From the NCBI GenBank assembly GCA_025356815.1, contig JANXQL010000026.1, forward strand, positions 1-64,000: a stretch of DNA of 64,000 nucleotides. Direction: 5' to 3'. Both the position numbers and the translations under genes were made by a program. Shown here one piece after another: positions 14,848-20,373 of the stretch. The notes beneath the pieces are model-generated. The model was not told the DNA's origin. It ran no database searches and worked only from the letters and a program-made list of their open reading frames with translations. This stretch comes from Pseudomonadota bacterium. GTDB taxonomy: Bacteria; Pseudomonadota; Gammaproteobacteria; Steroidobacterales; Steroidobacteraceae. How positions within the stretch are numbered: position 1 is the stretch's first letter; each line of letters opens with the position of its first letter.

Positions 14848-14962
14848 TGGCGCAGAAGCGGCCCTTCCGCGCCGTCCGGGGTGTCGGCTGGCATACCTTG
14901 TGTGGCAGACTCCACGCGCCTCCCCGGCGCCGGAACCGCTTGTATTAGTACCGTCCCACAGC

Positions 14963-16690
14963 ATGCCGCACACCCCCACCGCCTGGAGCACAGCGAGCCG
15001 CGGCGCGCCGTCGCGCTTTGATCTCATTGCTCTGCTGCTGGTGGTCGGGCTGCTGGCATTCTTCGCCGAGGGCAGCCGGGGAGTCCTCGCCCCGCTGACG
15101 ACGCTCGACGTGAGCCCGGTCTCGCTCGACCCCCATCACTTGCCCTTGTACGTCGCGCGCACGACGCTGCGCATGCTCGCGGCGCTCGCCCTGTCGCTGC
15201 TGTTCACGTTCACCTACGCGACCTGGGCTGCCAAGAGTCACCGCGCCGGCCGGATCCTCGTGCCGCTGTTGGACATCCTGCAGTCGGTGCCGATCCTCGG
15301 TTTCATCTCCGTGACGGTGGTGTTCTTCCTGTCGCTGGCGCCGGGCCGGGTGCTCGGTGCGGAGTTCGCCGCGGTGTTCGCAATCTTCACGAGCCAGGCC
15401 TGGAACATGGCCTTCAGCTTCTACCAGAGCCTGCGCACGGTGCCAGTGGAACTGACCGAGGCCGCGCGCAGCTTCCGGCTGTCGGCCTGGGCACGCTTCT
15501 GGCGGCTGGAGGTACCGTTCGGCATGCCGCCGCTGATCTGGAACATGATGATGTCGATGTCCGGTGGCTGGTTCTTCGTAGTGGCCTCGGAGGCGATCAG
15601 CGTCGGCTCCACGACCGTCACGCTCCCGGGCGTGGGTTCCTACATCGCGCTTGCCATCGCCCACAAGAACCTGCATGCCGTCGGCTGGGCGATCGGCGCG
15701 ATGCTTGCGGTGATCCTGTTGTACGACCAGCTGCTGTTCCGACCACTGGTCGCCTGGGCCGATCGCTTCCGCTTCGAGCAGGACCCCGGCGACCTGCCAC
15801 CACGGTCATGGGTGCTGGAGGCGCTGGCCGGATCGCGTCTGGTCGCACGCTTCCTGCGCCAGCTGCGCCACGCCGGCCGCGCGGTCGGTGCTGCGATCCG
15901 CACCACGACGCCGTCCGTCATGCGCCTCGAGACGCCGCAGACCGCGCGCCGCCTGGATCGCATCGCGACCGGCATCGTCGCGACGCTGCTACTGCTGGCC
16001 CTGTGGCAGGCGGTCAAGTTCCTCGCCCCGGAGCTCGGCTGGTCCGACCTCGGCCGCACGGTCGGCCTCGGCGCGATCACGGCACTGCGCGTGTTCCTGC
16101 TGATCGCGCTCGCAAGCGCCGTGTGGGTGCCCATCGGCGTCTATGTCGGGTTGCGTCCCGGCGTCGCCCGCATCGTGCAGCCGGTCGCGCAGTTCATGGC
16201 GGCTTTCCCCGCCAACCTGCTCTTCCCGGTCGCGGTGTTCGGCATCATCACCTGGAAGCTGAACCCGGACGTCTGGCTCAGCCCGCTGATGATCCTCGGA
16301 ACCCAGTGGTACATCCTGTTCAACGTGATCGCGGGCGCGACCTCGATCCCCAGCGAGATGCGCCACGTCGGCAACAACTTCCACGTGACCGGCTGGCTGT
16401 GGTGGAAGCGGATCGCGCTGCCGGCGGTGTTCCCGTTCTATGTCACTGGGGCACTGACCGCATCAGGTGGCTCGTGGAACGCGGCCATCGTCGCCGAGGT
16501 CGCCAGCTGGGGCGACGAACACGTGACCGCGACCGGGCTCGGCGCCTACATCGCCAACGCCACCACCGCTGGCGACTTCCACCGCATCGTGCTGGGCGTC
16601 GTGACGATGAGCCTGTACGTCCTGCTGATCAACCGGCTGCTGTGGCGGCCGCTCTACTACTACGCGGAACGCAAGTTCCGACTGTCGTGA
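14963..16690 (+). CDS. ABC transporter permease with two fused membrane domains (NitT/TauT-like)
   Basis: About 575 residues containing two binding-protein-dependent permease domains in one chain (roughly residues 60-275 and 335-570). The first has the EAA loop as TEAARSFRLSAWARFWRLEVPFGMPPL; the second has an equivalent around FHVTGWLWWKRIALPAVFPFY. Fused permeases of this sort pair with the ATPase type found immediately downstream, four bases away. Uptake of a small anion, sulfonate or similar solute is typical of the superfamily. No substrate-binding protein gene lies nearby. ATG 14963 lacks a clear ribosome site; a GTG at 14900 is the alternative. Confidence 0.85.
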   Translation: MPHTPTAWSTASRGAPSRFDLIALLLVVGLLAFFAEGSRGVLAPLTTLDVSPVSLDPHHLPLYVARTTLRMLAALALSLLFTFTYATWAAKSHRAGRILVPLLDILQSVPILGFISVTVVFFLSLAPGRVLGAEFAAVFAIFTSQAWNMAFSFYQSLRTVPVELTEAARSFRLSAWARFWRLEVPFGMPPLIWNMMMSMSGGWFFVVASEAISVGSTTVTLPGVGSYIALAIAHKNLHAVGWAIGAMLAVILLYDQLLFRPLVAWADRFRFEQDPGDLPPRSWVLEALAGSRLVARFLRQLRHAGRAVGAAIRTTTPSVMRLETPQTARRLDRIATGIVATLLLLALWQAVKFLAPELGWSDLGRTVGLGAITALRVFLLIALASAVWVPIGVYVGLRPGVARIVQPVAQFMAAFPANLLFPVAVFGIITWKLNPDVWLSPLMILGTQWYILFNVIAGATSIPSEMRHVGNNFHVTGWLWWKRIALPAVFPFYVTGALTASGGSWNAAIVAEVASWGDEHVTATGLGAYIANATTAGDFHRIVLGVVTMSLYVLLINRLLWRPLYYYAERKFRLS

Positions 16691-16694
16691 CCTC

Positions 16695-18020
16695 ATGAAC
16701 GCTAACCTCAAGCCCTCCGCTGATGGCGTGCCGCTGCTGGACGTGGTCCACGCACGCAAGTCGTTTCCGCGCGGCGACGGCGCCGAGCTGCTGGTCCTTG
16801 AGGACGTCAGCCTCACCGTGCAGCCCGGCGAGATCGTCGGCCTGCTGGGCCGCTCGGGCTCCGGCAAGTCAACGTTGCTCAGGCTGATCGCCGGGCTGTC
16901 CAAGCCCGCCGGCGGCGAGGTGCGCTACCTCGGCACCCCGGTGCGCGGCCCCGCCGAGGGCATCGCGATGGTGTTCCAGAGCTTCGCGCTGTTCCCGTGG
17001 CTGACCGTCTACGAGAACGTGGCGCTCGGACTCGAGGCGCTGAAGGTGCCGCGCGACGAGATCCGCCGCCGTTCGCTTGCCGCGATCGACCTGATCGGCC
17101 TCGACGGCTTCGAGTCCGCCTATCCGCGCGAGCTGTCCGGCGGCATGCGCCAGCGGGTCGGCTTCGCGAGGGCGCTGGTCGTGCAACCGAACCTGCTGCT
17201 GATGGACGAGCCTTTCTCGGCGCTTGACGTGCTTACCGCCGAGACGCTGCGCACCGACTTCCTCGACCTGTGGTCGGACGGCCGGATGCCGATCAAGGGC
17301 GTGATTCTGGTGACCCACAACATCGAGGAGGCGGTACAGATGTGCGACCGCGTGCTCGTGTTCGCGACGAATCCCGGCCGGATCGTCTCGACGATCGAGG
17401 TGACCCTCCCGCGGCCGCGCAACCGCCTCGACCCCGCCTTCGCAGCGCTGGTCGAGCGAATCTACGTCGAGATGACGGCGAAGCCCGGCCGCGGCGCGGC
17501 GCCGCGGGTCGAGCGCGCGGCCGGGGCCGGCATCGACATGATCCTGGCACGGGTCTCGTCGAACCTGATCTCGGGCCTGATCGAGACGGTTGCGGCGCCG
17601 CCGTTCTCCGGCAAGGCCGACCTGCCGGAAATCGCCTCCGAGCTGCAGCTGGAGATCGACGACCTGTTCCCGGTCGCGGAAACCCTGCAGATGCTGCGCC
17701 TGGCCGACGTCGAGGGTGGCGACCTGCGGCTCACGCCGGAGGCCATCTTGTTCGCAGACTCGACCGTCGACGAGCGCAAGCGGCTGTTCGCGCGGCATCT
17801 GCTGGCCTACGTGCCGCTCGCGGCTCATATCCGCCGGGTGCTGGACGAGCGCGCCAGCCACGCGGCGCCGAAGAGCCGATTCCTCGATGAACTCGAGGAC
17901 CACATGTCGCCGGAGTCCGCCGAGCAGTCGCTGCGCGCGCTGGTGAGCTGGGCGCGCTACGCCGAGATATTCGCCTACGACGACGAGACCGGCTCGTTCA
18001 GCCTCGAGAACCCGACCTGA
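16695..18020 (+). CDS. ABC transporter ATP-binding protein with AAA-associated C-terminal domain
   Basis: A 441-residue protein. The ABC domain has Walker A GRSGSGKST, Q-loop VFQSFALFPW, signature LSGGMRQR and Walker B LLLMDEPFSALD followed by the switch His in VTHNIEEA. After about residue 270 comes an extra domain (MILARVSSNLISGLIE through WARYAEIFAYDD) matching the AAA-associated C-terminal domain of nitrate/sulfonate/bicarbonate-type ATPases. Starting five bases after the permease stop, it clearly forms one transporter with it. The accessory domain probably regulates transport. Confidence 0.9.
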   Translation: MNANLKPSADGVPLLDVVHARKSFPRGDGAELLVLEDVSLTVQPGEIVGLLGRSGSGKSTLLRLIAGLSKPAGGEVRYLGTPVRGPAEGIAMVFQSFALFPWLTVYENVALGLEALKVPRDEIRRRSLAAIDLIGLDGFESAYPRELSGGMRQRVGFARALVVQPNLLLMDEPFSALDVLTAETLRTDFLDLWSDGRMPIKGVILVTHNIEEAVQMCDRVLVFATNPGRIVSTIEVTLPRPRNRLDPAFAALVERIYVEMTAKPGRGAAPRVERAAGAGIDMILARVSSNLISGLIETVAAPPFSGKADLPEIASELQLEIDDLFPVAETLQMLRLADVEGGDLRLTPEAILFADSTVDERKRLFARHLLAYVPLAAHIRRVLDERASHAAPKSRFLDELEDHMSPESAEQSLRALVSWARYAEIFAYDDETGSFSLENPT

Positions 18021-18023
18021 GTC

Positions 18024-19097
18024 TCACCACAGCGTGAGCTGGCCGGCCGTGGACGGCGCGCGGAACTGCGTGCAGTCCAGCGGCGGCCCCTCGCCGGTGG
18101 CGAGCCCGAGGCGCCGCGCGGCTCGCTCAAAGCGCGCCCCGATCAGCGCGGCATACGCGCCCTGGCCGCGCATGCGGCTGTGGAATCGGCTGTCGTCGTC
18201 CTGCCCGCCGCGGCTGGCGCGCAGCAGGCTCATCACATGTGCGGCGGCGAGCGGCCGGTGCGCCTGCAGCCAGTCCCGCATCAACTGCTGCAGCTCCCGC
18301 GGCAGGCGCAGCAGGATCCAGCCGGCGTGGCCCGCCCCCGCTGCTGCTGCCGCCTCCAGGATCGCCTCGAGCTCGTGGTCATTCACGCGCGGGATCACCG
18401 GCGCGACCATCACCGCGGTCGGCACGCCGGCCGCCGTCAGGGTACGGATCGCCCGAAGGCGCGCCTGCGGCGAGGCCGCGCGCGGCTCCAGGGTCCGTTT
18501 CAGGGCCGGATCGAGCGTCGTGATGCTGATCGCCGCGCGGGCGAGCCCGCGTCGCGCCATTGCCGCGAGCAGGTCCGCGTCGCGCTCGATCAGCGCCCCC
18601 TTGGTGAGCACCGTGACCGGGTGACCGGCGTCATGCAGCGTCTGCAGGATCGCCCGCGTGATCCCCGTGTCGCGCTCGACGGGCTGGTAGGGGTCGGTGT
18701 TGGCGCCGAGGTGGATGGGCTCGGGCCGATAGCCGGGCCGGCCTAGCTCCTCGGCCAACAGCCGCGCCGCGTCCGGCTTCATGTAGATCTGCGTCTCGAA
18801 GTCCAGGCCCGGCGACAGGTCCAGCCACGCGTGCGAGGGTCGCGCGAAGCAGTACACGCAACCATGCTCGCAGCCCCGATAGGGGTTGATGGAGCGGTTG
18901 AACGGCACGTCCGGCGAGCGGTTGGTGGCAATGACGCTGCGGCTCGCGTCGACATGCAGGCGGGTCGCCGGGTGGCGCGGGGGCTCCTCGTCGCCGGCGA
19001 CGGCGTCGATGTATTCGGGCGCCGCGTCGAGCCGGTGGGCCCGATAGCGGGAGGCGTGGTTGGAGGTCACGCCACGTCCCTTGGGGGGAAGCTGCAT
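18024..19097 (-). CDS. PA0069-family radical SAM protein (spore photoproduct lyase-like)
   Basis: A 357-residue protein. The radical SAM cluster motif is YRGCEHGCVYCFAR with Cys76, Cys80 and Cys83. The family hallmark MQLPPKGRG opens the protein, which fixes the start at 19097 despite a longer open frame. Relatives include spore photoproduct lyase, and my recollection is that P. aeruginosa PA0069 belongs to the LexA regulon. A near-perfect LexA box (19098-19115) abuts the start codon, so this gene is very likely SOS-induced and DNA-damage related. No ribosome site fits between box and ATG, suggesting leaderless translation or a different start. Confidence 0.88.
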   Translation of the reverse strand: MQLPPKGRGVTSNHASRYRAHRLDAAPEYIDAVAGDEEPPRHPATRLHVDASRSVIATNRSPDVPFNRSINPYRGCEHGCVYCFARPSHAWLDLSPGLDFETQIYMKPDAARLLAEELGRPGYRPEPIHLGANTDPYQPVERDTGITRAILQTLHDAGHPVTVLTKGALIERDADLLAAMARRGLARAAISITTLDPALKRTLEPRAASPQARLRAIRTLTAAGVPTAVMVAPVIPRVNDHELEAILEAAAAAGAGHAGWILLRLPRELQQLMRDWLQAHRPLAAAHVMSLLRASRGGQDDDSRFHSRMRGQGAYAALIGARFERAARRLGLATGEGPPLDCTQFRAPSTAGQLTLW

Positions 19098-19115
19098 ACT
19101 GTATAAATATACAGT
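19098..19115 (-). promoter_or_regulatory. LexA (SOS) box upstream of the radical SAM gene
   Basis: The sequence ACTGTATAAATATACAGT is an 8-bp inverted repeat with a 2-base centre and fits CTGT-N8-ACAG, the gammaproteobacterial LexA consensus, with the usual flanking T at 19097. It touches the ATG of the radical SAM gene. A -10-like TATATT lies inside the box on the minus strand, so LexA would block the promoter directly. Confidence 0.85.
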
Positions 19116-19128
19116 CCCGTCTCGCTGG

Positions 19129-20373
19129 TCAAGTCTCGCGAAAGCGGTCCATGCCGGCCAGTTCCGGGAACCAGCGCGTCCACGCCCAGGCCACCGCCAG
19201 CGTCGCGAGCCCGCCGACCAGCACCGCCGGGGCAAGCCCCCACCAGGCCGCCGTCAGGCCCGACTCGAACTCGCCGAGCTCGTTTGAGGCACCGATGAAC
19301 ATCGAATTGACCGCCCCGACCCGGCCGCGCATCGCGTCCGGGGTTTCCAGCTGCACCAGCAGGTGGCGCACGAACACGCTGACCATGTCCGCGGCGCCGA
19401 GCACCGCGAGCGCCGCCACCGACAGCAGGTAGCTGCGGCTGAGCGCAAACACGACCGTCGCGAGGCCGAAGACGAAGACGCCGCCGAACATCGCCCGGCC
19501 CACGCTGCGGCTGATGGGCCGCAGCGTCAGCCAGGCGCCCATCAGCGCCGCGCCGATGCCCGGCGCAGCGCGCAGCCAGCCGTAGCCGGTGGGACCGGTG
19601 TGCAGCACGTCGGTCGCGAACGCAGGCAGCAGCGCGGTCGCGCCCCCGAACAGCACCGCGAACAGGTCGAGCGAGATCGCGCCGAGGATCCGGTGGCGCT
19701 GCCAGACAAACCGCAGGCCCTCGACAACCGCGTGCCAGGTCGGCCGCTAGGTGGCCGGCACCTGCGGCGGCGCGGCCATGATCCCCGTCGCGACGACCGC
19801 GATGGCGAACAGCGCGGCGACAACCTCGTAGACCACCACCGGGCCGAGGTGGGCGTACAGCGCGCCACCGATCGCGGGACCGGCGATCGCGGTGACCTGC
19901 CACATCGAGGAATTGAGGCCAATCGCGTTGCTGAACAGCCGCTGCGGAACGAGGTTCGGCAGGATCGCCTGGCTCGCGGGCGCCATCAGCGCGCGCGCGA
20001 TGCCAAACGGAACCATCACCGCGAACACCGGCACGGCGCTCGCGAGCCCGCGCGCGGTCAGCATCACCAACGCCACCGAGCACACCAGCTCGAGCACGAA
20101 GCAGCCGAGCACGATCGCCTTGCGGCTCCAGCGGTCGGCCGCGTGTCCGGCCGGCAGCACGAACAGCAGAAACGGCAGGAACTGCGACAGCCCGATCAGG
20201 CCCAGATCGAGCGGTCGATGCGTAAGCTCGTAGACCTGCAGACCCACGGCGACCGTCTGGATCTGCGCCGCAAGTGACGCTGCGGTGCGTGCCAAGAGGT
20301 AGCGCACGAACGGCGTCTCGGCGAGCACCTCGCGCAGCGAACCGCTCTGGACCGGGCCGCTCGTGTCGCTCAC
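19129..20373 (-). pseudogene. MFS transporter interrupted by an in-frame amber codon
   Basis: The reading frame runs from GTG 20373 to a stop at 19129 and would encode about 413 residues of an MFS_3/enterobactin-exporter-like carrier (VRYLLARTAASLAAQIQTVAVGLQVYELT at the start, SLDLFAVLFGGATALLPAF in the middle). A single TAG at 19749-19747 interrupts it after 208 residues. The frame is unchanged on both sides, and the sequence after TAG (RPTWHAVVEGLRFVWQRHRILG) continues the family normally. So this is a point nonsense mutation or sequencing error, not a frameshift. A GTG in frame at 19656 could restart translation of the second half. The start overlaps the upstream hydrolase stop (GTGA). 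Confidence 0.85.

Follow-up and report, generated by a model that had tools for sequence, protein, structure and literature searches.

According to the available passages of PMC8565304, SplB (COG1533) is SOS regulated in several species, Bacteroidetes included, and Cirz et al. 2006 on the SOS response of P. aeruginosa is cited there among the earlier reports (reference 57). As far as the passages seen of the respective papers go, SplB-like enzymes have been linked to SOS gene neighbourhoods (PMC3765255), the Streptomyces radical SAM gene vnz_31145 is placed under 'General prediction' in a table of the LexA regulon (PMC9380542), and the RecA-dependent genes of M. tuberculosis include a DNA repair photolyase (PMC8151990). 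In the passages seen of PMC3323433, SOS control of splB was predicted in alpha- and betaproteobacteria and not observed in Gammaproteobacteria.

SOS control of PA0069-type genes is already in print, and the gene described here is a further example. We take both PA0069 and the protein family NF033668 to belong to COG1533. In the work of Cirz and colleagues from 2006 PA0069 is reportedly a member of the P. aeruginosa SOS regulon. To our knowledge the PA0069-type enzymes are SOS genes for which no reaction is known. The P. aeruginosa report had also been invoked in the first-pass annotation, and in substance it fits the passages of PMC8565304 (SplB/COG1533, Cirz 2006 cited); the name PA0069 was not found in the passages seen of P. 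aeruginosa SOS papers.

As with the SOS-regulated splB/COG1533 genes, a LexA box precedes a radical SAM gene of the same kind at this locus; the difference is that the box adjoins the start codon here. In contrast to what the available part of PMC3323433 states for Gammaproteobacteria, the box was found here before many gammaproteobacterial loci, including that of the window (the whole stretch of DNA analysed, 64 kb). The unusual part is the box adjoining the start codon in a probably leaderless arrangement. Coinciding starts of transcription and translation in an SOS transcript are also a feature of the leaderless lexA mRNA of M. tuberculosis, in the passages seen of PMC2897130; this is another gene in another organism, and the evidence there is experimental, whereas at the window it is a prediction. 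Among the matches listed in a literature search on leaderless mRNA, LexA box and start codon, none was about a PA0069-type gene by its title.

In the explanation that we infer for the window gene, the site would serve as operator in an SOS promoter that drives a PA0069-family radical SAM gene. The palindrome would span the -10 region, and it ends one base short of the start codon; LexA dimers bound to it would block the RNA polymerase. Upon DNA damage, RecA filaments would trigger self-cleavage of LexA and the gene would be switched on. In the genus of the window the transcript would most likely start with the A of the ATG or with one of the two bases before it, and this leaderless or near-leaderless mRNA would be translated without a Shine-Dalgarno site. 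The product would most likely be a DNA-acting radical SAM enzyme with a fold like that of spore photoproduct lyase that handles a damaged base. We hold this explanation, with LexA-operated promoter, (near-)leaderless mRNA and DNA-acting enzyme taken jointly, with high confidence.

The LexA box and its conservation before orthologues

The features at the start of the gene are as follows.

18024 to 19097, minus strand: PA0069-family radical SAM gene, 357 aa, with the ATG at 19097-19095 and the TGA stop at 18026-18024
19099 to 19114, minus strand: predicted LexA (SOS) box CTGTATAAATATACAG, coding strand CTGTATATTTATACAG, with an exact CTGT-N8-ACAG
19098 to 19115, no strand assigned: extended palindrome ACTGTATAAATATACAGT, read from the sequence, which contains the box

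The first-pass annotation had described a box that fits CTGT-N8-ACAG exactly and lies directly on the start codon. Both statements were confirmed: the core occupies 19099-19114, and the single base 19098 separates the box from the ATG, the minus strand reading CTGTATATTTATACAG-T-ATG. For scoring, a 20-base reference was used, TACTGTATATATATACAGTA, which we take to be the LexA consensus of E. coli. The site differs from it at 2 positions, and none of 100 shuffles of the window contained a place with 3 or fewer mismatches.

Of 369 genomes of the class, 133 gave matches to the PA0069 family (117 over the cut-off), and of 196 genomes of the order 100 did so (87 over the cut-off). In addition 80 named loci were taken from genome contigs; these are the best 80 of 546 and therefore lean to close relatives. 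In total 274 loci were examined, and the removal of 17 near-identical ones left 257. Some matches over the cut-off were left out (G355, G362, G062, G366, G314; G512, G521, G464), of which some begin beyond the gene start. An exact box within 250 nt upstream was present at 105 of the 274 loci and the backward pattern at 2. Within 130 nt upstream, 96 of the 257 orthologues had an exact box, compared with 1 of 6018 equally long control windows from the same loci; by sample these were 49/80 for the order, 12/110 for the class and 35/67 for the named loci. With one mismatch allowed the numbers rose to 118/257 against 122/6018 controls; boxes with one mismatch and fewer than 13 of the 20 consensus letters were dropped before counting. 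All 27 loci with Pseudomonas in the title, 4 of which are near-duplicates, were boxed (25 exactly, the others with one mismatch), and the 5 loci titled as betaproteobacterial gave no exact box and one with a mismatch.

At 7 of 8 alphaproteobacterial loci the motif GTTC-N7-GTTC or its complement was found, which is the repeat named for alphaproteobacterial LexA in the passages seen of PMC8565304; it occurred in 3 of 339 controls and at 1 of 249 other loci. The PA0069-type gene is thus tied to LexA by two unrelated motifs, the gamma-type box and the alpha repeat. By sequence evidence the site of the window is a conserved LexA operator. LexA control of PA0069-type genes, as judged from these boxes, is common and not universal, for 143 of the 257 orthologues are without a gamma-type box. 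Conservation of an SOS-linked box, as proposed in the first-pass annotation, therefore stands for many orthologues and not for the family as a whole. On a quickly built FastTree phylogeny with 254 of the 257 loci (252 with a state), presence and absence of the box changed at least 26 times, compared with 75-89 times in 10 shuffles; intein-bearing rows kept much of their insert in this tree, which may draw them together.

The counts do not support the idea that boxes were lost because LexA was, since 74 of 80 genomes having an orthologue, boxed or not, contain a LexA-family match (68 over the cut-off). The matches in these 80 genomes seem to fall into a high-scoring tier and a tier of about 130-190 bits, sometimes with both in one genome. 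Some genomes possibly have a second LexA with its own motif. The 143 box-less loci were also searched for an alternative motif by counting spaced palindromes and direct repeats against control windows. The top candidate, CCGC-N9-GCGG (15/143), was rejected as a coding signal, because in 13 of the 15 cases it overlaps the conserved GRG codons and in the others it ends 2 or 10 nt before or near them.

At one box-less locus (L023, G082:C1) a LexA-family match, a DNA polymerase IV gene and the PA0069-type gene lie in a row on one strand. Here the last gene may be served by an operon promoter, as it follows the other two. Among the 274 loci, most of which hold only about 0.8-3 kb of upstream sequence, the polymerase IV of this locus was matched nowhere else as a general upstream repair partner, and a search for the own LexA as upstream neighbour gave no match.

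Spacing of the box and the predicted start of the transcript

The distance from box to start codon was determined at 112 loci, after 2 of 114 boxed loci without a usable start codon behind the box had been dropped. It was 1 nt at 12 loci, 3 nt at 5, 7-8 nt at 19, 9-12 nt at 8, 14-16 nt at 36, 17-28 nt at 30 and 67-68 nt at 2. All five genomes of the window's genus that have the gene show the 1-nt gap between box and ATG; three further sampled genomes of the genus gave no match to the PA0069 family. Short and long spacings changed at least 11 times on the tree, compared with 26-34 times in 10 shuffles. A Shine-Dalgarno 4-mer at -16 to -4 was found at none of the 17 loci with 1-3 nt and at none of the 19 with 7-8 nt. 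The corresponding numbers for longer spacings were 1/8 (9-12 nt), 19/36 (13-16 nt) and 16/32 (17 nt or more).

To locate promoters, pairs of -35 and -10 elements were scored around each box in a search blind to the start codon. In the 7-8 nt class the predicted 5' end fell at position 0 (17 loci) or -1 (2 loci) in 19 of 19 cases, against a mean of 11.6 and a maximum of 17 in 300 shuffles. A TTGACA-like hexamer starts 12 nt before the box in this class, with on average 3.84 of 6 matching letters compared with at most 2.26 in 500 shuffles. In the 1-3 nt class the predicted 5' end lay between -2 and +1 at 13 of 17 loci (300 shuffles: mean 7.4, maximum 12), and the -35 signal taken alone was weak, being reached by 24 of 500 shuffles. 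The four loci of this class that were off the leaderless register are L062, L194, L251 and L269, of which the last three contain another ATG in frame further on. Related loci are not independent in these promoter counts, which give a predicted 5' end at -2 to +1 for 32 of 36 short-spaced loci (1-8 nt) and for 0 of 74 loci with a spacing of 9-28 nt. In the 13-16 nt class the -35 signal peaks at 25 nt before the box, and a leader of 20 nt is predicted most often (13/36). By this search the promoter is in register with the start codon in the 7-8 nt class and, less clearly, in the 1-3 nt class.

The upstream region of the window gene contains the following features.

19127 to 19132, minus strand: candidate -35 TTGACC, 17 nt from the candidate -10, part of the best promoter of the start-codon-blind search
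19104 to 19109, minus strand: putative -10 TATTTA of the same promoter, inside the LexA box
19106 to 19111, minus strand: alternative -10 TATATT, 15-nt spacer, read by eye
19129 to 20373, minus strand: upstream MFS transporter frame, with Pfam MFS families on both sides of an in-frame TAG at 19747-19749

With the -10 candidates of the window, transcription would begin at the A of the ATG or 2 nt upstream of it. As a -10, TATTTA is weak, and a strict sigma-70 scan of 18900-19400 gave no promoter. The TTGACC-type -35 spacing recurs in the genus at L166 and L186 and not at L173. When the five loci of the genus were aligned on the box together with L203, the best TTGACA register was 37 nt before the box (1/500 shuffles) and not at the predicted 18. 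The TGA stop of the upstream MFS frame falls within the candidate TTGACC, which may therefore be conserved for a reason other than promoter function. Taken together, the mRNA of the window gene is probably leaderless or nearly so, since the candidate promoter is placed in such a way that the predicted transcript begins at or near the ATG; the support is computed and consists of the missing Shine-Dalgarno 4-mers and the predicted 5' ends. The leaderless mRNA that the first-pass annotation had suggested is in this way backed by 0/36 Shine-Dalgarno 4-mers and 32/36 predicted 5' ends, but not by the strict scan.

The gene could also be controlled by LexA without being leaderless, if transcription comes from further upstream, reading through from the MFS gene or beginning at an unseen promoter, and if translation relies on coupling or on a leader. 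We regard this as possible, though rather unlikely. The MFS frame ends 31 nt before the radical SAM ATG on the same strand, its part after the TAG has matches near 12 other loci, and the negative result of the strict scan would also suit such a start. However, a box occupied by LexA should hinder read-through, a Shine-Dalgarno 4-mer is missing from all 36 short-spaced orthologues, and -35, box and ATG keep a constant register in the 7-8 nt group. The in-frame TAG of the MFS frame is either a real inactivation or an assembly error. On the other side of the radical SAM gene, the plus strand at 14900-18020 carries genes of an ABC transporter permease and ATPase, convergent with it; the ATPase has a C-terminal AAA-associated domain.

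The PA0069-type product

The protein scores 456.5 bits with NCBIfam NF033668 (PA0069 family radical SAM protein; cut-off 360) and belongs to this family, which NCBIfam labels as hypothetical equivalog. It is related in sequence to the Rv2578c family (NF038135 rSAM_Rv2578c), with 222.8 bits far below the cut-off of 430. A Pfam Radical_SAM match is present. An AlphaFold model computed with an alignment of 70 sequences reached a mean pLDDT of 90.2, and among solved structures spore photoproduct lyases match it best (Foldseek E 4.6e-9; Z 19.6 with an rmsd of 3.1 across 258 residues), followed by lipoyl synthase as the next family with Z 15.5. A sequence search of solved chains returned no spore photoproduct lyase at E up to 1; the best match there was the peptide maturase SkfB (7.8e-5). 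A solved member of the PA0069 family was sought and none was found.

Spore photoproduct lyase needs a fourth cysteine as H donor (C141 in Bs, C140 in Gt; PMC3742179, PMC5368176), and a clostridial enzyme uses a cysteine elsewhere (PMC5368176), according to the passages seen of these papers. In the 70 members of the PA0069 family, C76, C80 and C83 (CX3CX2C) are the only invariant cysteines. A fourth invariant cysteine was not found, as judged by column conservation; the best columns have cysteine in 52/70 and 44/70 sequences, and there the window protein has P125 and A327. The tyrosine pair of spore photoproduct lyase, Y96 and Y98 in Gt, flanks the third cluster cysteine. Matched by place in the motif only, Y82 is found in 70 of 70 members, and position 84 is Y in 44 and F in 26, the window protein having F. 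Fold, CX3CX2C motif and, by its place in the motif, the tyrosine before the third cysteine are common to both; clear sequence similarity and the invariant fourth cysteine are not. The resemblance to spore photoproduct lyase noted in the first-pass annotation accordingly holds for the fold alone. The family has a spore-photoproduct-lyase-like fold and cofactor motif but should not bear the name of that enzyme, because the invariant fourth cysteine is missing.

From the regulation, the fold and the single locus with a DNA polymerase IV gene in the same row we infer a role in DNA damage, with a DNA lesion as the presumed substrate. Most likely the product is a DNA-acting radical SAM enzyme which repairs or processes a damaged base by a somewhat different chemistry. 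An enzyme that modifies for example RNA, a protein or a small molecule during the SOS response is a less favoured candidate, to which we give a limited chance. It would suit SkfB as the best solved sequence match and the family being without a solved member among the structures searched, and PMC12924846 warns, in the passages seen, that the SplB label of a sister protein of the Rv2578c family is weak. The fold nearest to spore photoproduct lyase, the SOS control and the gene row with DNA polymerase IV at L023 speak against it and for the DNA-acting enzyme.

The repeated link to LexA by unrelated gamma and alpha motifs ties the job of the PA0069-type enzymes to DNA damage, and this tie makes a direct screen of lesions with these enzymes worthwhile. 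The box-on-start-codon promoters form a natural series from leadered to apparently leaderless, which allows one to ask whether leaderless SOS mRNAs gain under damage. As a tentative and rather doubtful extension, the LexA-controlled PA0069 gene may have turned leaderless in several lineages, with box and promoter moving up to the start codon, and its enzyme may reverse a DNA lesion by a radical chemistry other than that of spore photoproduct lyase. DNA damage would in that case give rise to a message independent of Shine-Dalgarno pairing, which might still be translated while normal initiation is hampered.

In five loci of the same family (L200, L201, L202, L203 and L208) the matches are split within one long frame. 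In L202, the only one read, the third cluster cysteine is immediately preceded by a long insert whose ends are intein-like; Pfam gives a weak LAGLIDADG_3 match below the cut-off.

SOS genes of the source genome

In three respects the source genome agrees with a gamma-type LexA/SOS regulon: the promoter region of the radical SAM gene holds the palindrome, a LexA is encoded whose gene is boxed too, and the site is conserved before orthologues. It encodes one LexA (242.5 bits), whose recognition helix resembles the one in E. coli LexA. The lexA gene has an exact box of its own, CTGTATGTCCATACAG, 9 nt before its ATG, with GGGAG in between.

Two further alternatives concern the start codon and the nature of the palindrome. 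Translation might begin downstream, for instance at the GTG of codon 10, and the box would then lie at a normal distance; we consider this very improbable, because the GRG motif, at least 90% conserved in the 70 orthologues, precedes this GTG and the ATG follows the box after 1 nt at 5 of 5 loci of the genus with the gene. The least probable reading, in which a different regulator binds the palindrome or the AT-rich palindrome is due to chance, would suit the frequency of the bare core (14 genomic matches, 13 for the backward control), but the site is the sole place in the genome of 4,001,791 bases that departs from the E. coli consensus at 3 or fewer positions (control 0), the box is conserved before orthologues, and the alpha LexA motif stands at 7 of 8 alphaproteobacterial loci. 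The bare core of 8 bases by itself proves nothing, given these genome-wide numbers and the 0.60 occurrences expected in the 64-kb window; at least one was present in 42 of 100 window shuffles.

The LexA operator in front of the radical SAM gene is accompanied in this genome by other exact cores. One of them, CTGTGTTTCCATACAG, precedes a YidB-like frame, after which pncC/cinA and, at a greater distance, recA lie on the same strand; a box of recA's own was not found at the threshold used. Another, CTGTTTACACATACAG, precedes a fragment of an integron integrase, scoring below the NCBIfam cut-off, at a contig end (L012 1501-1516, G000:C152). For the remaining CTGT-N8-ACAG cores of the genome no tie to SOS genes was made. 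The core of the YidB-like frame (L003 1501-1516, and L289, G000:C28) has an ATG of this frame inside the box. At L006 1501-1516 (G000:C94) a LexA-type core, CTGTATCTTTGTACAG, lies beside an inverted repeat seen by eye, and a GNAT acetyltransferase frame follows 191 nt downstream of the core.
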